From: a virus
DNA: 20,400 bases
Reading direction: 5' to 3' (one strand)
Virus record (IMG/VR): IMGVR_UViG_3300044951_001565
Location: 1-20,400 of that record
Both the position numbers and the translations under genes were made by a program. This document shows, in pieces, positions 1,752-20,400 of the stretch (position 1 is the stretch's first letter; each line of letters opens with the position of its first letter). The notes under the pieces were generated by a model. That model was not told where the DNA came from. It did not search any database and saw only the letters and a program-made list of their open reading frames with translations.

Positions 1752-3325
1752 AATTCCTCGACAAACTATTTGGCCGCAAAGCCGCCGAGCTGACCTACGA
1801 CCAGGTCGCCAACCTGATCGACGGATTCAGCGGCGGCCAGGTGGCTGGCGTCACCGTCACCGACAAGACCGCATTACAGGTCTCCACCGTGCTGGCCTGC
1901 GTCAAAGTCATTGCCGACGGTTGCGCCACGCCGGACCTGCATGTCTACCGCGAACAAAGCGACGGCACCCGCAAGAAAGCTGCGGACATCCCGGAATATC
2001 GCCTGCTCAACCGCCGCCCCAACGAATGGCAGACCGCCTTCGAATGGCGGCGGCAGATGACCATTCACGCCGCGCTCACCGGCGCCGGCCTCTCCATCAA
2101 AGTACGCGACGACAAAGGCCGCGTGCGCGAACTGATCCCGGTCATGCCTGGCCAGTGGGACATGCGGCGGGTCAGCCGCTATGACGTGCGCTATCGCTGC
2201 TGGGATCAGTTTGGCCAGATCGGCGACTTCGCCCCGGAAGACGTATTTATCCTCAACGGCGTGCAATGGGACTGGATCGGCAGCATGAACGCCGTCGTAC
2301 TCGCCCGCTCCGCCATCGGCCTCGCCATCGCCACCGAAAAAAGCCAGGCCGCCATGCACGCCAACGGCCTGCGCCCGAGCGGCGTCTACACCGTCGAAGG
2401 CAACCTCACCCAAGAACAACACGAACGCCTGGCCGCATTCCTCAAACGCAAATCTGGCGCCGACAAAGCCGGCGACCCGCTGGTACTCGACCGCTCAGCC
2501 AAATGGACCAGCACCGCCATCAACGGTGTCGACGCCCAGCACGTCGAAACACGCCGCCTACAGATCGAAGAAATCTGCCGCGCCTACGGCGTCTTCCCGA
2601 TCATGGTCGGCCACTCCGACAAGTCCGCCACCTTCGCCAGTTCCGAGGCCTTCTTTGCCGCCCACGTCAAACACACGCTGGCCCCCTGGCACCAAGCCTG
2701 GATGCAGCGCATTGACGAAATGCTGCTCGATGGCAACGGCCCGCTGTTCGCCGAATTCGACACCCGCTACCTGATGGCCGGCGCCATGAAAGACCGCGCA
2801 CTCTGGGCCCGCACCATGGCGGAGATGGGCATCTACACGCGCAACGAAATCCGCGACGAAGAAGGCAAAGACCCACTACCCGGCCTGGATGAACCGCTCA
2901 CCCCGCTGAACATGAGCCAAGGCAAAGGAACCACCAATGAACCAGACCCCGCCGAGCAAGACAAGGCGTTTAATCGCTTGGAGCGCAAGCTAGAAGCCCT
3001 GAGCCAGCGCCCGCCGGTGATCGTAAACAACCACCTGCCAGAGCAGCGCAACGAAATCAATGTACGCAACGAAGCCCCGGCCGCGCCCAACGTCACAGTG
3101 AACACGCCACCGGTAGAGGTGCGCAACGCAATCAACGTGCCGGAAACAATCGTAAATATAGAGGCGGTCATGCCCGAGCAAAAAGCGCAGCAAGCCGTAG
3201 TCAACATCGAAGTACAACCGGCGCCAGTCACTGTGAACAACGCATTTGCGCGCAAAGCCGTGCAAGTGGTGGAGCGTGATGGCAATGACGAAATCACGCA
3301 AACAACAACCCGATACGAGGCCTAA
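1748..3325 (+). CDS. Phage portal protein (HK97 family) with C-terminal beta-repeat extension
   Basis: The portal forms the dodecameric ring at one head vertex through which DNA enters and to which the tail attaches. From GTG 1748 the product is 525 residues and begins VKFLDKLFGRK. The core carries family features such as STVLACVKVIADGCA near the N-terminus, NRRPNEWQTAFEWRRQM and ICRAYGVFPIMVGHSDKSA. HK97-type portals are usually a little over 400 residues. Here roughly the last 128 residues (398-525) form an extra region: a charged helix (AFNRLERKLEAL), then short alternating hydrophobic units such as EINVRNE, VTVNTP, EVRNAINVP, TIVNIE and VVNIEVQ, ending KAVQVVERDGNDEI. I chose the GTG because of the well-placed AGGAAACCGC. 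The longer ATG-1676 form would overlap terL by 47 bases. Core function is firm. The role of the tail extension is unknown; a fused accessory domain or beta-helical appendage is possible. Confidence 0.93.
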   Translation: MKFLDKLFGRKAAELTYDQVANLIDGFSGGQVAGVTVTDKTALQVSTVLACVKVIADGCATPDLHVYREQSDGTRKKAADIPEYRLLNRRPNEWQTAFEWRRQMTIHAALTGAGLSIKVRDDKGRVRELIPVMPGQWDMRRVSRYDVRYRCWDQFGQIGDFAPEDVFILNGVQWDWIGSMNAVVLARSAIGLAIATEKSQAAMHANGLRPSGVYTVEGNLTQEQHERLAAFLKRKSGADKAGDPLVLDRSAKWTSTAINGVDAQHVETRRLQIEEICRAYGVFPIMVGHSDKSATFASSEAFFAAHVKHTLAPWHQAWMQRIDEMLLDGNGPLFAEFDTRYLMAGAMKDRALWARTMAEMGIYTRNEIRDEEGKDPLPGLDEPLTPLNMSQGKGTTNEPDPAEQDKAFNRLERKLEALSQRPPVIVNNHLPEQRNEINVRNEAPAAPNVTVNTPPVEVRNAINVPETIVNIEAVMPEQKAQQAVVNIEVQPAPVTVNNAFARKAVQVVERDGNDEITQTTTRYEA

Positions 3326-3330
3326 ACTCA

Positions 3331-3768
3331 ATGTCAAAAGCCAACGCCACAGAAAACGACTTTGTAAAGTTTGTTTTCAACGCCGTCGCCATGCCGTCAT
3401 ACGGTGCGGTGCTGCAACTCAATTTTCACACGGCAGACCCCGGCGAGGCAGGCACTGCAACGACCAGCGCCCCGACACCAACCAGCTACGCCGCACAAAC
3501 GGTCACCCGCGACGACACGGGCTGGATAATTTGCGACACCAACGGCACGCCAAACGCCTCAGGCAGCGCAGTCAAAAACGCCGCACAGGTGACCTTTCCC
3601 GAGGTTGAAAGTGGATTTGTAGGCACCGAGACGTGGACGCACGGCAGTGTCTCGGTAGTGGCGACAGGCCAGATTCTGTACAGCGGCGCGCTCACCCAGC
3701 CCATCATCGTATCGGCGCTGACAACGCCGCTATTCCCGGCTGGAACCGTGATGTTTTCCGAGGATTAA
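3331..3768 (+). CDS. Small phage protein of the 'HTADPGE' type, putative structural/fibre-like
   Basis: The 145-residue product starts five bases after the portal stop. It contains LNFHTADPGEAGTAT followed by a Tyr-containing segment, QTVTRDDTGW, and a C-terminal half of short beta-like strands (VTFPEV, ILYSGALTQPIIVS, FPAGTVMFSED). From memory, the motif 'HTADPGE-G', then a Tyr, then 'V' strands and 'FPEA' is shared by small phage proteins often labelled tail fibre or hypothetical. Their function is not settled. There is no signal peptide or membrane segment. The Shine-Dalgarno is weak (gagg inside the portal end), so coupling to portal translation is likely. Its place between portal and protease favours a virion component such as a head decoration or head-associated fibre, but that is inference. 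Confidence 0.7.
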   Translation: MSKANATENDFVKFVFNAVAMPSYGAVLQLNFHTADPGEAGTATTSAPTPTSYAAQTVTRDDTGWIICDTNGTPNASGSAVKNAAQVTFPEVESGFVGTETWTHGSVSVVATGQILYSGALTQPIIVSALTTPLFPAGTVMFSED

Positions 3769-3771
3769 GCC

Positions 3772-4392
3772 ATGCCTGAGAGTTTCACCCAAGTCCCGCC
3801 CAACTCATCGGGCAACAAAATGCGCACGCGCTCACGGGTCATTGGCGCAGACACCGTGCATGAGCAAGCGGTGTTCAACGGCGCGCTGCCCACCTATTAC
3901 GCGCTGGCCGATGCCGTGGCGTTTGCGGCCAACAAGCACATGATCAGCATCCACAACGCAGCGGGCACGGGCAAGATGGTGGTGCTGAAAAAGATGTTCC
4001 TGATCAATCTGGCACTCGCCGCCATCACGGGCGTGGCCTTGCGCCAGGATGTCAAGCGGTTTTCTGCGGTGCATACGGGTGGCACGGCCATCACACCAAT
4101 ACCATGCGATAGCGCCAACGCCGCGCTGCCAGCAGGCATTACCTGCAAGACGGGTGCCACACTGACCGATGTCACGCTGCTGTTCCCCATCACCTTCACC
4201 AACGATGAAACGGGCGCGACCCAGGCGTTCCCTTCCACCATGCTGCAAGCCGGTATCAACTGGTTGCCAGAAGGCTCAGAGGTGCAAGAAATCCGCTTGC
4301 GTGAAGGCGAAGGGATCACCATCAAGAACATCACCAGCACCACCCTTGGCAGCTACGCTTACCTGATCGTGTTCACAGTGGACGACCTGTAA
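3772..4392 (+). CDS. Hypothetical phage virion-type protein (206 aa)
   Basis: I do not recognise this family with confidence. The start is three bases after the preceding stop, with GAGGA about ten bases upstream. The product is 206 residues, soluble-looking and without a signal peptide. It is rich in Thr, Ala and short beta-like stretches (MISIHNAAGTGKMVVLKKMF, SAVHTGGTAITPI, VTLLFPITFTNDETGA) and ends LGSYAYLIVFTVDDL. The N-terminus (NKMRTRSRVIGADTVHEQAV) and the Pro/Gly/Thr composition suggest a beta-rich structural protein. It is the second gene of a four-gene block lying between portal and protease, where HK97-type phages usually have nothing or one gene. A decoration, accessory head or neck protein is the most reasonable guess. 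Confidence 0.75.
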   Translation: MPESFTQVPPNSSGNKMRTRSRVIGADTVHEQAVFNGALPTYYALADAVAFAANKHMISIHNAAGTGKMVVLKKMFLINLALAAITGVALRQDVKRFSAVHTGGTAITPIPCDSANAALPAGITCKTGATLTDVTLLFPITFTNDETGATQAFPSTMLQAGINWLPEGSEVQEIRLREGEGITIKNITSTTLGSYAYLIVFTVDDL

Positions 4393-4394
4393 CG

Positions 4395-4880
4395 ATGCTG
4401 CTGGCCTACGAAACGCTGACCTACTATGGCCCTGGCGCAGTTGCGCTGGTAGCCGACAGTGGCAGCGGCGCGGTGGTAGCCGCTCAGCCGGTCATGGCCA
4501 AGCGAACCAGCGCCGCTGCAAGTGGGTTAGGTACAGCGAATGTGTTACGCCCTTACCGTGGGCGGGCCTTTGCGCTGGTCAACGGTGGCATCGCAGAACT
4601 GACCGCCCAGCCGCGCAAGCGCCAACGCTTCGGCTTAACGGTATCCATAGGCGGCGCACTGACACAAGACGGCGTCACCGGCGCCGTCTTGGAAGCGCCG
4701 ATCGAAGGCGGCCTGTCACTTAAACAAGCCCTCCGCATATTACTGGCCCAAGCAGCCGGAAACGCCACCGGTCTAGAGGGCGTCAGCCCGGAATTCCGCG
4801 CGGTCGACGGCAGCAAGGTGCGAATTGCGGGCACCTACAGCAGTGGCACCCGCACGGTAACCACCCTGGACGGATCGTAA
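4395..4880 (+). CDS. Hypothetical phage protein with conserved C-terminal 'FRAVDGSKVRI' domain
   Basis: The 161-residue product starts two bases after the previous stop, with no good Shine-Dalgarno, so it is probably translationally coupled. The N-terminal part (residues 1-100) is Ala/Gly/Val-rich and low in complexity. The C-terminal part has a helix (SLKQALRILLAQAAGNATG, about 108-126), then PEFRAVDGSKVRI and TYSSGTRTVTTLDGS. This helix-plus-'FR-VDG-K-RI' arrangement recurs in small phage proteins of unknown function encoded near head or tail genes, as far as I can recall. The following gene, which is likewise Gly/Ser/Trp-rich, appears to be its partner. No catalytic motif is visible. Confidence 0.7.
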   Translation: MLLAYETLTYYGPGAVALVADSGSGAVVAAQPVMAKRTSAAASGLGTANVLRPYRGRAFALVNGGIAELTAQPRKRQRFGLTVSIGGALTQDGVTGAVLEAPIEGGLSLKQALRILLAQAAGNATGLEGVSPEFRAVDGSKVRIAGTYSSGTRTVTTLDGS

Positions 4881-4883
4881 GCG

Positions 4884-5213
4884 GTGGCCTCCAAATGGTT
4901 AGGGCAGTGGCAAGGAAGCTGGCAGGGATCGGGAGCCGATGCGGGCAGCTCGATGGCGGCCGCCGCGCTCAAAGTCAGCGGCATTGGCAGTGGGATATTT
5001 ACAGCGGCACAGAGGATACGAGCAGCGCTCAATGCGCCAGGCAGCAGTGATTATTTGATGTCGGCAACCACTGAGGCGACGCCGCCTCAGCCCGAGAACG
5101 GCCCCTCTGGTGGATCGCGTTGGCTGAGCGGCTACACGCCGAAGTTTGATGACACTCGGCCAAAAACCAAGCGGCGCAATCGGCGAGATGAACTGCTGTT
5201 TTTAACAGCGTAA
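4884..5213 (+). CDS. Hypothetical Trp/Gly-Ser-rich small phage protein
   Basis: The 109-residue product uses GTG at 4884, three bases after the previous stop. The N-terminus is a short Trp/Gln/Gly repeat (KWLGQWQGSWQGS) followed by GADAGSSMAAAALKVSG and a mixed Ala/Gly segment. The C-terminus is strongly basic (RPKTKRRNRRDELLFLTA). I do not know its function. The pattern (aromatic-glycine repeat, alanine-rich middle, basic tail) occurs in poorly described phage proteins near head genes. A nucleic-acid-facing or capsid-associated role for the basic tail is only a guess. Confidence that it is a real gene is moderate: the close spacing and protein-like composition support it. Confidence 0.6.
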   Translation: MASKWLGQWQGSWQGSGADAGSSMAAAALKVSGIGSGIFTAAQRIRAALNAPGSSDYLMSATTEATPPQPENGPSGGSRWLSGYTPKFDDTRPKTKRRNRRDELLFLTA

Positions 5214-5223
5214 GGGGACAAAG

Positions 5224-5937
5224 ATGCAACAGCACAGAGAACTGAAAGAGTCACCCGGCGGTCATGAGATCCGCTCCTATGCCTTGAGCATCAAAGCGAC
5301 CGGGGACGACGGCACGATTGAGGGCTATGGCTCCGTGTTCGGCGTGCGCGACAACTATGACGATGTCATCGCGTCGGGCGCGTTCATGAACTCGCTGCAA
5401 AGGCACAAGGCAGCAGGCAGCATGCCCGCCATGCTCTGGCAGCACAACGCCGACGAACCGATCGGCATCTGGACCGACATGGTCGAAGATGCCAAAGGCC
5501 TGCGCATCACAGGCATGCTCGCCCTCGACACCGTGCGCGGCAAAGAAGCGCACGCACTACTCAAGCTGGGCGCGCTCAACGGCCTCTCCATCGGCTTCAT
5601 GAGCAAGCAATGGGCCTACGACCGCGAAGCCGAAGTGCGTACATTGACCGAAATAGATCTATGGGAAGTATCCCTGGTCACCTTCCCGGCAAACGAAAAA
5701 TCCCGCGTCACCAACGTAAAAGCCGACATCAAGGTCGCGCCAGACGAAATTAACGCCCCGAAAGATGCCGAAAGAATCCTGCGCGAGGCCGGATTCAGCA
5801 AGTCCGACGCGACAGCCATCGTCAGCCGCGTCATGCGAATGGGAGAAGCGCGGAGTGATTCCGCCAATTCGACCGCCGCCGCCATGAAAGCCGCCAGCCA
5901 ATCTGCCACGCGGCTGCTGAACTCACTTACCTCCTGA
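5224..5937 (+). CDS. HK97-family prohead protease
   Basis: This serine protease (the HK97 gp4 type) is packaged in the prohead, removes the delta domain of the capsid protein and then digests itself. The 237-residue product shows IEGYGSVFGVRDNYDDVI (32-49), a His in MLWQHNADEPIGIW (H74), a Ser in NGLSIGF (S122) and the strand WEVSLVTFPAN (147-157). These are the usual family landmarks, with His and Ser as the expected catalytic residues. The C-terminal segment after about residue 165 is helical and alanine-rich, as in other members where it may act as a scaffold. The start follows AAGGGGACAAAG. It lies 11 bases before the capsid gene, the standard order. Confidence 0.95.
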   Translation: MQQHRELKESPGGHEIRSYALSIKATGDDGTIEGYGSVFGVRDNYDDVIASGAFMNSLQRHKAAGSMPAMLWQHNADEPIGIWTDMVEDAKGLRITGMLALDTVRGKEAHALLKLGALNGLSIGFMSKQWAYDREAEVRTLTEIDLWEVSLVTFPANEKSRVTNVKADIKVAPDEINAPKDAERILREAGFSKSDATAIVSRVMRMGEARSDSANSTAAAMKAASQSATRLLNSLTS

Positions 5938-5938
5938 A

Positions 5939-5948
5939 AGGAAACCGC
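5939..5948 (+). promoter_or_regulatory. Ribosome binding site of the capsid gene (AGGAAACCGC)
   Basis: AGGAAACCGC lies directly before ATG 5949. It is identical to the element before the portal GTG and the holin ATG. The strong purine core suits a high-copy product. Confidence 0.7.
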
Positions 5949-7328
5949 ATGAAAAGCAAAACACTCCTGGCCATCATGGCCGCCCACTTCGCCGTCTTCC
6001 AGGCCAACGCCGCCAGCGTTTACGAAAAGCGCGAAGACCCCAGCATCAAATCGGTTGCCGACGCGCTCGACAAGATCGCCACCGCGTTTGATGAGTACAA
6101 GAAAACCAACGACGCCCGCATCGAAGCTGTCAAAGCCGGAAAAAGCACCGCCGACTTCGACGCCAAGCTGGCCAAGATGGACGACCACATGAACAGCCTG
6201 AGCGAAATGAAAGCCAAGCTGGAAAAGGTCGAAACCAAACTCGCCCGTCCAGGCGCATTCTCCGGCGGCAAGGCAGAAGGCGAAGGCAAAGAAGAGACTG
6301 AATATCGCCACGCCTTCATCGACTGGATGCGCGCCCCGGCTGACCACGACCGCCAGCAACGCACCGCCCAGGCCGCCAAAGCGCTGGAAGCCAAATCCAA
6401 AGCCGACGGCCGTGAAACCCGTTCGGCTCAGGCGGTCACCTCCACCGGCGCTGCCGGCGGCTTTGCCCTGCCTGAATTCATTGAAAGCGCCATCGCCCGC
6501 CTGTCGGTCGATATCTCCCCGATCCGCCAGATTTCCACCGTCCGCACGGTCGGCACCTCGGACTACAAAGAACTGTTCGACATCAACGGCGCCGCCTTCG
6601 AGTGGGTTGGCGAAACCGACACCCGCAACCAGACCAACACGCCAGACCTGGCTGAAGTCGCCCCCACCTTCGGCATGGCCAGCGCCAAACCGCAGGCATC
6701 GGAAGAGTCGCTGGATGACCTGTTCTTCAACGTCGAAGACTGGTTGATCAGCTCCGCCGCCGAAGCCATGGCCGCCGGTGAAGGTGCCGCGTTCGTCTCC
6801 GGCAACGGCACCAAAAAGCCCACCGGCTTCCTCGCCGGCCCCACCCCGGTCAGCACGGTAGACGCCTCGCGCGCCTTCGGCACGCTGCAATACATCGCCT
6901 CCGGCCAGGCAGCGGCCATGCCCACCAGTGCAGACCTGTTTTACGACCTCATCTACAGCCTGCGCGCCCGCTACCGTAACAACGCGCAATGGGTCACCAA
7001 CAAACTGGTTCTGGCCGCCATGCGCAAATACAAGGACACCGCCAACCAGTATCTGTGGCAACCCTCGCTGGTGGCCAGCCAGCCCGCCACCTTCCTGGGT
7101 TACGGTGTAACCGAAGCGGAAGACATGCCCGCCGTTGGCGCCGGCACCTTCCCGCTGGCGTTTGGCGACTTCCGCGAAGGCTACCTGATCGCCGATCGCG
7201 TCGGCCTGCGCATCACTCGCGACGAAATCACCACCCCGGGATTCGTCAAGTTCTACGTGCGCAAGCGGGTGGGCGGCAAGTTGCGCAACACCCAGGCCAT
7301 CAAGCTGCTGAAGATCGCCGCCTCCTGA
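5949..7328 (+). CDS. Major capsid protein, HK97 fold, with N-terminal delta domain
   Basis: This builds the icosahedral head shell. The 459-residue product has a charged, coiled-coil-prone N-terminal region (about residues 28-100: LDKIATAFDEYKKTNDARI, LAKMDDHMNSLSEMKAKLEK) expected to be the delta/scaffolding domain removed by the protease. After a basic linker, the HK97-type shell domain begins near residue 155-170 (TSTGAAGGFALPEFIESAI). Family landmarks follow: ISPIRQIST, FEWVGETDTRNQTNTPDLAEV, FNVEDWLISSAAEAMAAGEG, GNGTKKPTGFL, LRARYRNNAQWVTNK and the late FGDFREGYLIADRVGLRI. The extreme N-terminus (MKSKTLLAIMAAHFAVF followed by QANA) looks like a secretion signal, which is odd for a cytoplasmic protein. 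A strong terminator follows 16 bases after the stop, matching the need for large amounts of this message. Confidence 0.96.
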   Translation: MKSKTLLAIMAAHFAVFQANAASVYEKREDPSIKSVADALDKIATAFDEYKKTNDARIEAVKAGKSTADFDAKLAKMDDHMNSLSEMKAKLEKVETKLARPGAFSGGKAEGEGKEETEYRHAFIDWMRAPADHDRQQRTAQAAKALEAKSKADGRETRSAQAVTSTGAAGGFALPEFIESAIARLSVDISPIRQISTVRTVGTSDYKELFDINGAAFEWVGETDTRNQTNTPDLAEVAPTFGMASAKPQASEESLDDLFFNVEDWLISSAAEAMAAGEGAAFVSGNGTKKPTGFLAGPTPVSTVDASRAFGTLQYIASGQAAAMPTSADLFYDLIYSLRARYRNNAQWVTNKLVLAAMRKYKDTANQYLWQPSLVASQPATFLGYGVTEAEDMPAVGAGTFPLAFGDFREGYLIADRVGLRITRDEITTPGFVKFYVRKRVGGKLRNTQAIKLLKIAAS

Positions 7329-7446: not shown

Positions 7447-8010
7447 CCCGCCATCTGCACCGTCGCCCCCGCCGAAGAACCCATCAGCCTCGCCGAAGCG
7501 CGCGCGCACCTGCGTGTCGACCACACCACCGACGATCCGCTGATTAGCGGCCTGATCATCGCCGCGCGGGAAGCGGCCGAATCACGCACCGGCCGCGCAA
7601 TGGTCACGCAGCAATGGCGCCATACCGCATCCGCCTGGACGGATCAAATTACCCTGTCACCCGCGCCGCTGGCCAGCGTCGAAGAAATCACCTACCTGGA
7701 TGCGGACGGCACCCGGCAAACGCTGGCGGAATCGTCTTATCAAGTGGTCACCGACACCCTGCAAGGCAGCGTCTGCCCCGCCTACGGCGCCAGCTGGCCC
7801 AGCGCCCGCAATGAACCCGGCAGCATCCGCATCGACTACACCGCCGGCTATGGCAGCGCCGCCGATGTCCCGCAGGCCATCAAGGTCTGGATGCTGTTGG
7901 TGATCGGCACCTGGTACAGCCAGCGCGAAGGCATTGTCACCGGCGTCAACGTCTCGGAAATACCGCGTGGCTTCTGGGAAGGCCTGCTCGACCCCTACAA
8001 GACATTCTAA
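7444..8010 (+). CDS. Head-tail connector protein (HK97 gp6-like)
   Basis: This forms the ring placed under the portal after packaging. The 188-residue product begins in the typical way (EEPISLAEARAHLRVDHTTD, then DPLISGLIIAAREAAESRTG, about residues 30-51), followed by a beta-strand part (LSPAPLASVEEITYLDADG). It continues with IRIDYTAGYG and a helix (VPQAIKVWMLLVIGTWY) and ends GLLDPYKTF. These are the landmarks of the gp6-like/phage connector family, here somewhat longer than the roughly 100-residue HK97 protein and closer to the longer 'connect_1' forms. The start is fixed by GAGGAA eight bases upstream. The stop overlaps the next start as TAATG, so the lysis gene downstream is probably coupled to it. 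Confidence 0.9.
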   Translation: MPAICTVAPAEEPISLAEARAHLRVDHTTDDPLISGLIIAAREAAESRTGRAMVTQQWRHTASAWTDQITLSPAPLASVEEITYLDADGTRQTLAESSYQVVTDTLQGSVCPAYGASWPSARNEPGSIRIDYTAGYGSAADVPQAIKVWMLLVIGTWYSQREGIVTGVNVSEIPRGFWEGLLDPYKTF

Positions 8011-8435
8011 TGAACCCCACACCCCGCATCATCCTGGCCGATTATTTCGCCGGCCACGCCGGTCATCCCGCCATCACCGCAGAACATCGCGCCAGCGCAG
8101 AAATGCTGCTGGTGCAAGTCAACGCCCTGCTCGCAGAGATCATCGCCAGCGGCAACGCCGATATAGACCTCAACCCCAAAACAGGCAGTCTGATCAGCGG
8201 CAGCAAAAACGGCGGCTGGCGACCGCCTAACTGCCCGGAAGGCGCACCCAACAGCAGTCACAAAGAAGGCCGTGGCGTTGATATCTACGACCCGGATGGC
8301 GACCTGGACGCCGCTTGTCATGATGACCTACTCGCCAAACATGGGCTTTATCGTGAACACCCGTCGCAGACTAAAGGGTGGCTTCACCTCACCAACCGCG
8401 CCCCTCGCTCCGGCCGGCGCACGTTTTACGCATAG
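8010..8435 (+). CDS. M15-family peptidase, putative endolysin
   Basis: This is predicted to cut peptide cross-links or side chains of host peptidoglycan for lysis. The 141-residue product has the zinc peptidase M15 pattern: SSHKEGRGVDIYD (residues 82-94, H84 and D91 as metal ligands) and a later GWLHLT (123-128, H126), with RPPNC and GSKNGGWR before the first motif. Length fits the small M15_3-type phage endolysins. There is no signal peptide or membrane segment, so release would need the holin encoded next. It overlaps the connector gene by one base (TAATG) and is followed nine bases later by the holin. A virion-associated peptidase role is a less likely alternative, given the adjacent holin. 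Confidence 0.85.
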   Translation: MNPTPRIILADYFAGHAGHPAITAEHRASAEMLLVQVNALLAEIIASGNADIDLNPKTGSLISGSKNGGWRPPNCPEGAPNSSHKEGRGVDIYDPDGDLDAACHDDLLAKHGLYREHPSQTKGWLHLTNRAPRSGRRTFYA

Positions 8436-8443
8436 GAAACCGC
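8434..8443 (+). promoter_or_regulatory. Ribosome binding site of the holin gene (AGGAAACCGC)
   Basis: This third exact copy of AGGAAACCGC overlaps the endolysin stop codon (TAG 8433-8435) and stands one base before ATG 8445. It suggests that the holin has its own good initiation signal rather than relying only on coupling. Confidence 0.6.
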
Positions 8444-8444
8444 C

Positions 8445-8855
8445 ATGTGGCCCGCACTGATCCCCCTGTTTGGTAGCCTGATCGAGAAGTTCATCCCCGA
8501 CCCGCAAGCCGCCGCCGACGCCAAACTGCGCATGCTGGAAATGGTGCAGAAGGGCGAACTGGCCGCGCTTGATGCCGACATGAAGCTCGCCCTCGGCCAG
8601 ATGGAAATCAACAAAGCCGAAGCCGCGCAAGACAACTTTCGCGGCGGCTGGCGCCCCGCCACCGGCTGGGTCTGCGTCGCAGGCCTCTGCTATCAATTTC
8701 TGCTGATGCCGATCCTGCCCTGGCTCATCACCGTCGCCGGTGGCCAGGTGCCGCCGCTGCCGCCCATCGACAACGACACGCTAATGGTATTGTTGACCGG
8801 CATGCTGGGCCTGGGTGGCATGCGCACGTTTGAAAAAGTGAAGGGTTCCGCATGA
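8445..8855 (+). CDS. Holin, GTA-type three-transmembrane family
   Basis: This is predicted to permeabilise the inner membrane at a set time so that the endolysin can act. The 136-residue product has an amphipathic/hydrophobic N-terminus (ALIPLFGSLIEKFIPDP, 4-20), a charged helical stretch (AAADAKLRMLEMVQKGELAA, then MEINKAEAAQDNF), the conserved FRGGWRPATGWV and a membrane span (about 72-95). A second span (about 112-128, LMVLLTGMLGLGG) is followed by MRTFEKVKG. This layout, especially 'F-GGWRP-TGWVC' and 'G-RT-EK-KG', is that of the GTA_holin_3TM family. The stop overlaps the next start as ATGA. Confidence 0.85.
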   Translation: MWPALIPLFGSLIEKFIPDPQAAADAKLRMLEMVQKGELAALDADMKLALGQMEINKAEAAQDNFRGGWRPATGWVCVAGLCYQFLLMPILPWLITVAGGQVPPLPPIDNDTLMVLLTGMLGLGGMRTFEKVKGSA

Positions 8856-9313
8856 GCGATAACGCCAGGCGATCGTCTGACCACGAATCAAGCGCGCTAA
8901 AAAACGAAATCCTGAATGCGCTTGGACAAGTATCTGACCCATCGCACCGGGTTGTACTGACGTTGCTCATCAGAGTGATGGACGAAATCAGCGGCAAGCT
9001 GGATCGTGTCCTGAGCGACGAGGACAAGATCAAACACATCGTACTCAACGGTCACTCCACCGAGCATGATGCGCACCACGATTGGGTAGCGAACCAGATC
9101 GCCTATGAGATCAGCAACCCGCAAATGATCGAGCTCGCAAAAGATCGGCATCGGCACGGCGGTTACTGTGACTACGCAAGCCGCAAGAAAAAAGAAGAAG
9201 ACGCCAGCATCGACTCATCACGCAAGATCAAGAATGGCGTCATCGAACGAATCATCTGGGCGGTCATCATGATGATAGTCGGTGCAATCGGCAGTGCGTA
9301 TCTACACCTATGA
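8852..9313 (+). CDS. Hypothetical phage membrane protein, C-terminally anchored, in lysis block
   Basis: The family is not firmly recognised. The 153-residue product has a polar, charged body with a central HDAHHDWVANQI segment (72-83) and a basic stretch (SRKKKEEDASIDSSRKIKNG). It ends in a single C-terminal transmembrane helix (131-150, IERIIWAVIMMIVGAIGSAY), so it is probably tail-anchored with the bulk in the cytoplasm. Phage lysis regions often carry small proteins with 'H-HH-W' followed by one C-terminal helix, whose role is unknown. There is no lipobox or N-terminal anchor, so a spanin assignment is not supported. ATGA overlaps on both sides (8852-8855 and 9310-9313) place it tightly in the lysis operon, where a holin regulator or accessory membrane protein is a fair guess. 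Confidence 0.7.
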   Translation: MSDNARRSSDHESSALKNEILNALGQVSDPSHRVVLTLLIRVMDEISGKLDRVLSDEDKIKHIVLNGHSTEHDAHHDWVANQIAYEISNPQMIELAKDRHRHGGYCDYASRKKKEEDASIDSSRKIKNGVIERIIWAVIMMIVGAIGSAYLHL

Positions 9314-18701: not shown

Positions 18702-19165
18702 CCATTAGCGCACTACCCCCCGCGCCGACGCGCGAAGACGCCGCCGACTTCCGCACCCGCGCCGACGCGTTTTTGTCTGCGTTGCCGGCGTTTGGCACGC
18801 AGGCCAATGCGCTGGCGGCGGATGTGACCGCCAAGCAGTCGGATGTAACCACCAAGCACGACTCGGTCATTGCCGCCCACACCACCGCCATGGCGGCAGG
18901 CCTGGCCAACGCCGCAACCAACGCCAGCACCGCCACCAGCAAAGCTACCGAAGCTGCCGCCAGCGCCAGCAACGCACAAGCCGCCTGGACCGCCGCCCTA
19001 GCAGCCAACCCCGATCTCAACCCTGTGATCCGCATGAACCCCCGCGTGGCCAGTGAAAACACCACCATCCCCAGCCACTTCAACGCCTACAGCGCCGGCC
19101 CGCTGGAAATCGCAGCCGGCACCACCATTACCCTTGAAGACCATTCCACCTGGAGCATTTTATGA
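18698..19165 (+). CDS. Tail fibre stalk-type protein, coiled coil plus C-terminal beta cap
   Basis: The 155-residue product begins TISALPPAPTREDAADFRTR, a start common in phage tail fibre proteins. It continues in an Ala/Thr/Ser/Lys-rich helical repeat (about 35-100: ADVTAKQSDVTTKHDSVI, NAATNASTATSKATEAAA) typical of trimeric fibre stalks. The C-terminus (NTTIPSHFNAYSAGPLEIAA, GTTITLEDHSTWSIL) matches a recurring phage fibre ending: 'N-y--GP--Ia-G-tvti--gs-W-i'. There is no receptor-binding domain of its own, and the next gene, starting in an ATGA overlap, probably supplies it. It most likely forms a short linker fibre between tail tip and adhesin. Confidence 0.82.
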   Translation: MTISALPPAPTREDAADFRTRADAFLSALPAFGTQANALAADVTAKQSDVTTKHDSVIAAHTTAMAAGLANAATNASTATSKATEAAASASNAQAAWTAALAANPDLNPVIRMNPRVASENTTIPSHFNAYSAGPLEIAAGTTITLEDHSTWSIL

Positions 19166-20400
19166 GCAACCTGATCTTACGCAGCATCACCGGCAAGGAC
19201 GGCCAACCAGTCTATTTTCCTAACGGCATCGCCATCGGTTCCGGCAATTCCGGCGGCGTCAATGATATCGGCCTTCCCGGCCAGCGCGGCTTCGGTGTTG
19301 GCATCTGTCCAGAGGCCCTGCCCACCGGCATGGTGGAGCTGTCCGGCACGCGCGATCCGGCGTCCGACAATTACGGAAATTATCAGTTTTCGGACGGTAG
19401 CATCATGGTCTGGATGCCGGCGTTTTTTTACAAGTTCGGCACCGGGGTAAACGGGCTGGCGATCAACATTGTTGACATCAAGCCGTTTTCCACCTACGCC
19501 AGCATCGCCTCCGCCACCTCAGCCGGCTATGCGTTGCACCGAGCGTTCTACGATGGCGGCGCAATCAAATCCGGCGTGTTTGTCGATAAATACCTCGCCA
19601 CCAACAACGCTGGCACTGCCAGCAGCCTGCGTAACGGCAACCCGCTCAGCAGTGCCCTTGCACATAATCCGTTTAACGGCCTCACCGGCGCACCCGCAAA
19701 CACGTATGCCGGCGCAATTGCAGCGGCAAAAACGCGCGGCGCGAACTTCTTCTGCAACTCGCTGTTCATTTTCAAAGCGCTGGCTTTGCTTTCCCTGGCA
19801 CACGGCCAATCCAGCACCAGCACCACATTTAATGCCTGGTATTCCAGCAGCACCAGCAACTTCCCGAAGGGCTGCAACAACAACGCACTGAGCGATGCGC
19901 AGGATGCCATGCTGACATTTGTGTGGGATGGCTACGCCGCCAACAACTCATGCAAAACCGGTAGCGCCAACCTGTTCGCGCGCACCACACACAACGGGCA
20001 GAACTGTGGCGTGGCAGATCTTAATGGCTGCATGTGGGAGATCACCCCGGGCTTGACGGTAAACAATAACGATCCCGCAGTCGGCAATTTTTATGTGCTG
20101 AAAACCGCCACGGCGATGCGCAACGTGACAGGCGGCAACGCCCTGGCGACTGATCTGTGGGGCGCAACCGGCCTAGCCGCGCTGTATGACGATCTCGGCC
20201 TGATGAACAACTTCACCGGCTATGCGCTGAATTTTTCCGACCGCACATTAACGATGGGCAGCGCCAGCCAAGCGCTCAGCGCCGCCACCAGCGGCACCGC
20301 ATGGCAGATGACCGGCGCGGGCGTTCCGCTAGTGGCAGGCGGGTCAAACATGTTCGGCAATGACACCCTAAACGATTTCAGCACGGCGGATTCGTGCCCG
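19162..20400 (+). CDS. Receptor-binding tail protein, FGE/C-type-lectin-like, DGR-target type; 3' end outside window
   Basis: From ATG 19162 (ATGA overlap with the previous stop) the frame stays open for 413 codons to the last base, so it is truncated by the window edge. The N-terminal part (about 36-92: IGLPGQRGFGVGICPEALP, DNYGNYQFSDGSIMVWMP) is a fibre-type attachment region. From about residue 138 it reads like the formylglycine-generating-enzyme/C-type-lectin fold: SGVFVDKYLATNN (137-149), AIAAAKTRGANFFCNSL, FVWDGYAA, and the hallmark NGQNCGVADLNGCMWEITPG (278-297; D286-G289). It continues with ATDLWGATGLAALYDDLGL and GSNMFGNDTL. Phage proteins of this kind usually end in a variable segment ('G-W--gs-aG---L', 'GFR') that diversity-generating retroelements mutate. 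That end, and any reverse transcriptase, would lie to the right. The adhesin role is a family-based inference. Confidence 0.8.
   Translation, partial: MSNLILRSITGKDGQPVYFPNGIAIGSGNSGGVNDIGLPGQRGFGVGICPEALPTGMVELSGTRDPASDNYGNYQFSDGSIMVWMPAFFYKFGTGVNGLAINIVDIKPFSTYASIASATSAGYALHRAFYDGGAIKSGVFVDKYLATNNAGTASSLRNGNPLSSALAHNPFNGLTGAPANTYAGAIAAAKTRGANFFCNSLFIFKALALLSLAHGQSSTSTTFNAWYSSSTSNFPKGCNNNALSDAQDAMLTFVWDGYAANNSCKTGSANLFARTTHNGQNCGVADLNGCMWEITPGLTVNNNDPAVGNFYVLKTATAMRNVTGGNALATDLWGATGLAALYDDLGLMNNFTGYALNFSDRTLTMGSASQALSAATSGTAWQMTGAGVPLVAGGSNMFGNDTLNDFSTADSCP

Follow-up and report, generated by a model that had tools for sequence, protein, structure and literature searches.

The window analyzed here is a stretch of viral DNA of 20,400 nucleotides (nt; IMG/VR virus record IMGVR_UViG_3300044951_001565, positions 1 to 20,400), which contains a block of four small genes, g1 to g4, between the portal and prohead protease genes of a tailed phage. 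In HK97-type phages, to which this phage belongs by its head genes, the portal usually adjoins the protease. On balance, the results favor the view that the block encodes a virion side fiber, of the kind seen as fiber I of the Ralstonia podophage GP4, and moves horizontally as a module. This view builds on what was observed of the g1 family, the gene order, the mobility of the block, and the exchange of g2. The initial annotation of this DNA had described four small, tightly spaced genes between portal and prohead protease; its coordinates are exact (gaps of 2–10 nt), and the motifs it named are present (HTADPGE in g1, FRAVDGSKVRI in g3, and a Trp/Gly repeat with a basic tail in g4). The four are genes rather than chance open reading frames (ORFs), because profile homologues of g1, g2, and g3 keep their order in dozens of distinct contigs.

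Zheng et al. reportedly described GP4 fiber I, in a 2023 abstract, as gp80 dimers joined by an elongated rope protein. In the assembly proposed for the window, the g1 product would form beads strung along an extended, repeat-bearing rope consisting of g3 and lengthened by g4, and g2 would be a β-sandwich domain at the exposed end of the fiber, where it would touch the host and hence be exchanged. The Trp/Gly start of g4 may bind the module, while either the phage-specific remainder of g4 or the portal tail may dock the fiber at the head-tail vertex. We infer from the data below that g2, g3, and g4 would be located in the virion and supply the rope, tip, and anchor. If this assembly is correct, genes annotated as hypothetical become a recognizable unit with a testable structure, and phages would have, in addition to their classical tail fibers, a second layer of host contact that is modular.

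Family Membership of g1

By its sequence, g1 is assigned to the Gp80 family (PF23140). The protein matches the Pfam model "Podophage GP4 fiber I protein gp80" with an E value of 8e-12 (46 bits against a cut-off of 27) and covers positions 3–126 of its 128 positions, while the match to PHROG_240, "head protein" (E 7e-9), agrees more loosely with Pfam. Furthermore, a profile of 22 g1 homologues matches the GP4 chain 8jou_a (E 3.4e-12), one of 10 such chains in that PDB entry. When the GP4 gp80 segment was used as the query, 260 phage records were matched, 220 of them mycobacteriophages, with Bcep22-like phages at the top and JC1 gp53 matched at 64.6%. According to Table 6 of PMC9144972, mass spectrometry of CsCl-purified virions detected the JC1 gp53 homologue at 59% coverage (5 unique peptides). 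The suggestion that the block encodes virion parts is thereby supported as to g1, and the description of the block as uncharacterized no longer applies to this gene, although it does apply to g2, g3, and g4, which fall in no named family. In contrast to the podophage GP4, the phage of the window is of the HK97 type and has genes for a tape measure and a tail, and a member of the GP4 fiber I family is thus placed in such a phage, relatives in mycobacteriophages being already known.

Conservation and Mobility of the Block

Viral contigs were scanned with g1, g2, g3, and a g2 profile and then read with profiles, the resulting loci being numbered L001 onward; the g2 profile scan also lists every g2-bearing contig from the g1 and g3 scans. 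Order counts are anchored on g2 in loci L001–L110, with phage-collection loci omitted, duplicates dropped (same last 120 residues of g2), and g2 relatives below 100 bits dropped (e.g., L096, L101–L104, L106, L107, and L109). The fractions rest on 52 distinct g2 homologues above 180 bits, the homologues at 100–180 bits (4 of 56) being left outside them. Directly 5' of g2, g1 was found in 42 of the 50 loci with enough sequence. The eight loci without g1 (L065–L071 and L073) have g2 proteins of similar score (196–208 bits), and in the three that were inspected (L065, L069, and L073) g2 lies in a common setting, which in L065 consists of a tape measure gene and a hub-like tail gene before g2, as judged with PHROGs. 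Directly 3' of g2, g3 was found in 39 of 50 loci, the misses being the same eight together with L064, L017 (where the sequence is broken), and L036 (where a second g2 copy intervenes before g3). A recognized g4 follows g3 in 20 of 38 loci with room for it, where recognition means the Trp/Gly pattern or the g4 profile, both derived from these sequences; in a control with the Trp/Gly pattern alone, 3 of 98 g1 or g2 ends carry it. By these counts, the block is conserved.

The neighbors of the block differ considerably. Portals found with the block fall into seven PHROGs (12 in the window, 1216, 145, 113, 21, 156, and 12082, the last in L023 with three genes between portal and block), and the capsid proteins likewise fall into seven (10, 212, 1328, 334, 9953, 267, and 617, where the PHROG 617 protein is a fusion of protease and capsid), differing PHROGs being no proof of unrelated folds. 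In L007, the gene that precedes the block encodes a tail protein (PHROG 290 or 5616, both being given for it), and in L037 the block lies ~1 kb after a tail fiber gene (PHROG 31). The order g1-g2-g3, often with g4, is kept among these differing neighbors, which agrees with the earlier proposal that the four genes may act together.

Comparisons at the DNA level also point to movement of the block. The window is matched by L015 at 3212–4932, by L022 at 3330–4910, by L003 at 3329–4874, and by L002 at 3325–4873, and these four loci match it nowhere else in its first 7.4 kb (E 1e-5, same strand). Similarly, L091 and L087 match each other only at 5574–7157, from the start of g1 to ~50 nt into g4. 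More distant loci (L005, L009, L028, L030, L060, and L062) show partial matches to the block, that of L030 beginning at 3110, within the portal tail. In several phage pairs, therefore, DNA similarity begins at or near g1 and ends at or near the start of g4.

The same neighbors bear on the main rival explanation, capsid decoration, in which g1 and g2 would sit on the capsid lattice and g3 and g4 would aid their docking. Such a role could account for the location of the block among head genes, for the "head protein" label of PHROG_240, and for the match of the predicted g2 sandwich to the GP4 capsid entry chain 8h89_J described below. A protein that binds the lattice should follow its capsid, yet the block is seen with capsid proteins of seven PHROGs, and L002, the g1 and g2 of which are 89% and 87% identical to those of the window, has a capsid protein of PHROG 212 as opposed to PHROG 10. 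The initial annotation had also considered decoration, the likelihood of which is lowered by the occurrence of near-identical pairs such as these beside capsid proteins of different PHROGs. In addition, one group of g2 proteins lacks g1 and g3, and in L065 g2 comes after tape measure and hub-like tail genes. Passages of PMC9698820 describe an Ig-like cement protein in GP4, so that the Z score of 8h89_J is probably unspecific. Overall, capsid decoration is judged unlikely. No result pointed to the neck structure that had been named as a further option.

Exchange of g2 within the Block

Identities among the proteins of the block were compared across 38 distinct loci with g1, g2, and g3 (Spearman/Mantel, 999 permutations, shared descent uncorrected). 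The identities of g1 and g2 are uncorrelated (rho -0.01, 587 of 999 permutations as high), as are those of g2 and g3 (0.04, 186 of 999), and those of g1 and g3 correlate (0.37, 0 of 999); g3 tracks g1 better than g2 does, though g3 varies too. Among the 79 pairs in which g1 is more than 75% identical, g2 is less than 45% identical in 38. Judged by identity to the window protein, the g2 proteins of 22 of the 38 loci form one group and those of the other 16 a second.

The clearest pair is L051 and L091, in which g1 is 93%, the g3 repeat region 87%, the g3 C-terminus 93%, and g2 37% identical. One BLAST match covers g1 and continues over the first 99 nt of g2, and another runs from the last 93 nt of g2 through g3 into the start of g4. 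DNA identity is 0.85–0.95 over most of g1 and mostly 0.83–0.91 over g3, and within g2 falls to 0.6–0.7 at both ends and 0.39–0.45 over most of the middle, such that the strong match within the block is lost across g2 only. Sequence just outside the block is unmatched, with weaker matches further off. By such sequence comparisons, g2 has been exchanged in some pairs while g1 and g3 stayed. Loci in which g2 differs between otherwise similar g1 and g3 genes would amount to a natural experiment, in which the swapped part is expected to make the contact with the host.

The partly different histories of g1, g2, and g3 are also what would be expected if the block were a set of unrelated small accessory genes that share a hot spot and have no joint function. 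That g1 is found elsewhere without the others, and that g4 is absent or unrecognized in 18 of 38 loci, would fit this explanation as well. Nevertheless, the recurrence of the gene order beside differing neighbors, together with DNA matches that, in several pairs, extend across the block and end close to its borders, makes a mere hot spot very improbable.

Predicted Structure of g2

In Pfam, PHROGs, and NCBIfam, no meaningful score was obtained for g2, g3, or g4, which are thus unnamed at the thresholds used, and no clear homology to known non-structural families, which the initial annotation had listed as evidence that would count against a virion role, was found in these databases. Profiles of the three proteins gave chance-level rows only against the PDB. 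In the phage collection, the whole block searched as DNA gave no match, and searches with the single proteins returned one weak relative for g2, one partial match for g3, and none for g4.

The AlphaFold2 (AF2) model of g2, built from 42 sequences, is all β with a mean predicted local distance difference test (pLDDT) score of 80. In blocks of 10 residues, the pLDDT is 88–93 over residues 41–140 (except for 72 at residues 81–90) and 87–92 at 171–206, with 54–82 between 140 and 171 and 56–65 for residues 1–40. The prediction shows a β sandwich preceded by an arm of low confidence. A Foldseek search of the g2 model against the PDB gave no match below E 0.001. In VIA-align, the highest score (Z 7.2) is that of a tail-fiber domain of phage 7-7-1 and also of a KP1 baseplate part, followed by a viral turret (Z 7.0), C1q heads (~6.5), and the GP4 capsid entry chain 8h89_J (6.4); by the warning of the tool itself, Z scores below 8 may reflect a common arrangement, and families unlisted in this search are not thereby excluded. 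A check for a TNF/C1q-like fold or a viral jelly roll rests on the same values, with a best Foldseek E of 7.6e-3, a best Z of 7.2, and mixed families. The library of viral models contributed 25 matches to g2 below 0.001, most of which are unnamed or "uncharacterized" viral proteins. Nameless in Pfam, NCBIfam, and PHROGs at those thresholds, g2 would gain a working hypothesis from the fiber assembly.

The N-terminal arm of g2 is its most conserved part, with a mean identity over 703 pairs of 61% for residues 1–35, compared to 45% for residues 36–170 and 50% for residues 171–206. Arms resembling that of g2 also start proteins with other bodies in L101, L103, L104, L106, L107, and L109 (from ~5992), which share the motif Q/R-V-P-P-[DN]-S-[TS]-G-x-K; the two that were scanned, L101 and L104, match PHROG families for head decoration and virion structural proteins. 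A docking role for the arm would fit its occurrence before other bodies. Five tandem g2-like genes were also seen in a 210-kb viral contig (L100, 5992–8748).

Repeats in g3 and g4

Both g3 and g4 contain repeats of ~20 residues, the length also found in the candidate rope gene that adjoins gp80 in Bcep22-like and related phages. The best self-match lag is 21 for residues 1–95 of g3 in 13 family members (Z 10.9), 20 for 11 g4 proteins (Z 6.7), and 20 for the candidate rope of 7 phages (Z 12.2), compared to a control peak of 4.2 for 9 g1 proteins, all of these Z values being inflated as homologues are non-independent. The candidate rope gave no match to the PDB by sequence search and one chance-level row by profile. 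We infer a rope role for g3 and g4 from repeat length and neighborhood, because profile similarity was not found and the pairwise signal is weak. The AF2 model of g3 was set aside as evidence for a fold owing to its pLDDT of 48. In an alignment of the g4 family, the Trp/Gly start is conserved and the middle variable, and the proteins end in an acidic-hydrophobic stretch; this C-terminal signature, which was picked after viewing the sequences, is present in 14 of 17 members and in 678 of 3341 of the background.

The repeats also help to weigh a second rival, in which the four proteins would form a receptor-binding complex at the tail tip or neck with no rope-and-bead layout. The position of the block after a tail fiber gene in L037 and of g2 after a hub-like gene in L065 would be natural for such an adhesin set, as would the exchange of g2 and the presence of the phage 7-7-1 tail-fiber domain, tied at Z 7.2, among its top structural matches. 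The relationship of g1 to GP4 fiber I, however, and the repeat pattern of g3 and g4, which suits an extended part, argue for a fiber, and the adhesin set, ranked behind capsid decoration, is regarded as rather improbable.

Anchor Candidates and Weighing of the Fiber Assembly

Either g4 or the portal tail may be the anchor of the proposed fiber; both are unproven candidates. For several pairs of cassettes, the shared DNA ends at g4 or a short way into it. The portal tails of the window and L015 share 55% identity over 71 residues by blastp, with no other match between the two portals at E 1e-3. Of the 49 loci from a scan with this tail, 46 were inspected (L001, L010, and L176 omitted), equivalent to 31 distinct loci. 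Of these, 8 have g1 at any distance, 6 have it no more than 300 nt away, and 3 no more than 200 nt away; for a few of them, the downstream sequence is shorter than 700 nt. A search for a 20-residue period in the portal tail was negative (best lag 32, z 3.1). As the tail mostly occurs without g1 and lacks this period, its candidacy as the cassette's own anchor or rope is weakened. In several of the portal-tail loci, other small proteins occupy the place of g1 and are perhaps alternative fiber parts. Upstream proteins, several of which are portals, were also seen to end in a K-x-I-x-R-D-x-x-G-x-I-like motif, which occurs in 18 of 55 upstream neighbors of g1 and in 37 of 723 genes of at least 100 residues in the same loci (neighbors included), the pattern being loose and some calls false.

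A more far-reaching and tentative proposal is that the block is a complete, transferable beads-on-rope side fiber with an exchangeable tip, taken up as a unit by phages that differ in portals, heads, and tails, with g2 replaced inside the kit. Docking would then occur via small, generic peptides, supplied either by g4 (its Trp/Gly start and its acidic-leucine end) or by arm-like portal tails. Phages equipped in this way would alter their surface contact and leave their own tail fibers untouched.

Several results weigh against the side-fiber assembly. Profile-profile comparisons of the candidate rope with g3, of the rope with g4, and of g3 with g4 revealed no similarity, and pairwise scores are only slightly raised (mean z of 1.7 for g4 against g3 and 0.65 and 0.66 for g3 and g4 against the rope, with controls at -0.38 to 0.26). 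No confident fold was obtained for g3, and the top score of g2 falls in the range of common arrangements and mixed families. The incomplete recognition of g4 noted above belongs here too, as does the finding that g3 is less than 45% identical in 37 of the 79 pairs with similar g1, so that variation is not confined to g2; this variation in g3, along with the reduced identity at both ends of g2 in the L051–L091 comparison, slightly lowers confidence in the proposal and in its more far-reaching form. Among bacterial-genome loci with a g1 homologue, a g2 match was found in 1 of 39 and a g3 match in 1 of 39, and g1 thus also works with other partners. In a Nitrosovibrio genome (L120, 8657–9625), a protein 3' of g1 was seen to end in DEDEELLMMVI, resembling the C-terminus of g4. 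A gene for an adaptor like GP4 chain 8jou_D was searched for in the window and not found. Finally, JC1 gp54, a candidate rope, is not among the detected virion proteins named in passages of PMC9144972; its counterparts in BcepIL02 and BcepMigl are annotated as virion-associated.

Comparison with Known Systems

GP4 fiber I (gp80, PDB 8JOU, PF23140) resembles the block in the sequence family of g1, and a repeat-bearing gene adjoins the gp80 homologues of Bcep22-like phages. An 8jou_D-like adaptor follows the cassette in L007, where a relative is present at the end of g4 (E 2e-6); others occur in loci with g1, and BcepIL02 gp57 matches 8jou_D with an E value of 3e-20. The block is treated as a possible functional parallel of the GP4 fiber I assembly and not filed under it, because the adaptor was not found in the window. 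Furthermore, in contrast to GP4 fiber I, the profiles of g2, g3, and g4 have no PDB chain better than E 0.097. The Bcep22-like phages encode a gp80 homologue, a repeat gene, and an adaptor in a row (BcepIL02 gp55-gp57 and JC1 gp53-gp55), with no annotated gene between the first two, where the window has g2, and their candidate rope is not alignable by profile to g3 or g4. A third system is the "extra structural module" of LSH1, gp34-gp35-gp36, three genes that appear as a set in every LSH1-related genome that carries them; in passages of PMC13243795, gp35 is reported to match 8JOU_g by HHpred (E 0.0075) and to be a predicted dimer. Compared by the descriptions given there, the LSH1 partners comprise a lyase-like protein with a beta helix and a protein with an Ig fold, whereas those of the window are a β sandwich and two repeat proteins. 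No description of the four-gene block was found in the literature searched, and one may exist in subscription papers, which lay mostly outside the search.

Organization of the Window

The window is filled by a run of head and tail genes of a tailed phage with an HK97-type head, as judged from the ORF list, Pfam, PHROGs, and NCBIfam. The order is a terminase-like gene (labeled by eye with no profile scan), portal, g1–g4, prohead protease, major capsid protein, head-tail connectors, tail terminator, tail protein, and tape measure. The portal gene ends at 3325 and the protease gene starts at 5224, with spacings from portal through g1, g2, g3, and g4 to protease of 5, 3, 2, 3, and 10 nt. The flanks of the block were identified by the profiles Phage_portal/TIGR01537 on one side and Peptidase_S78/TIGR01543, then Phage_capsid/TIGR01554, on the other. 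Coordinates are given in Table 1.

Table 1. Genes of the block and the adjoining portal extension, in window coordinates.
Feature	Position	Strand	Description
g1	3331..3768	+	145 aa; Gp80 family by sequence (GP4 fiber I protein); bead in the proposed model
g2	3772..4392	+	206 aa; conserved N-terminal arm (~1-35) and predicted β sandwich (~37-206); putative exchangeable tip/adhesin
g3	4395..4880	+	161 aa; N-terminal ~21-residue repeats (putative rope), conserved C-terminal segment with FRAVDGSKVRI
g4	4884..5213	+	109 aa, GTG start; Trp/Gly N-terminus, repeat, basic stretch, acidic-hydrophobic C-terminus (RRDELLFLTA); putative junction/anchor
Portal C-terminal extension	2930..3325	+	Common to portals of other PHROGs; possible partner

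Two further features lie downstream. An open ORF at the 3' end of the window (~19160–20400) has what we take to be a C-type-lectin-like tail-end appearance, presumably of the kind varied by diversity-generating retroelements. Among the head-tail connector genes, a holin gene (PHROG 3427) is present, preceded by an ORF at 8010–8435 that has no PHROG match and that we take, from its appearance, to encode an M15-type peptidase. Lysis genes thus seem to lie inside the morphogenesis run (window 8010–9313).

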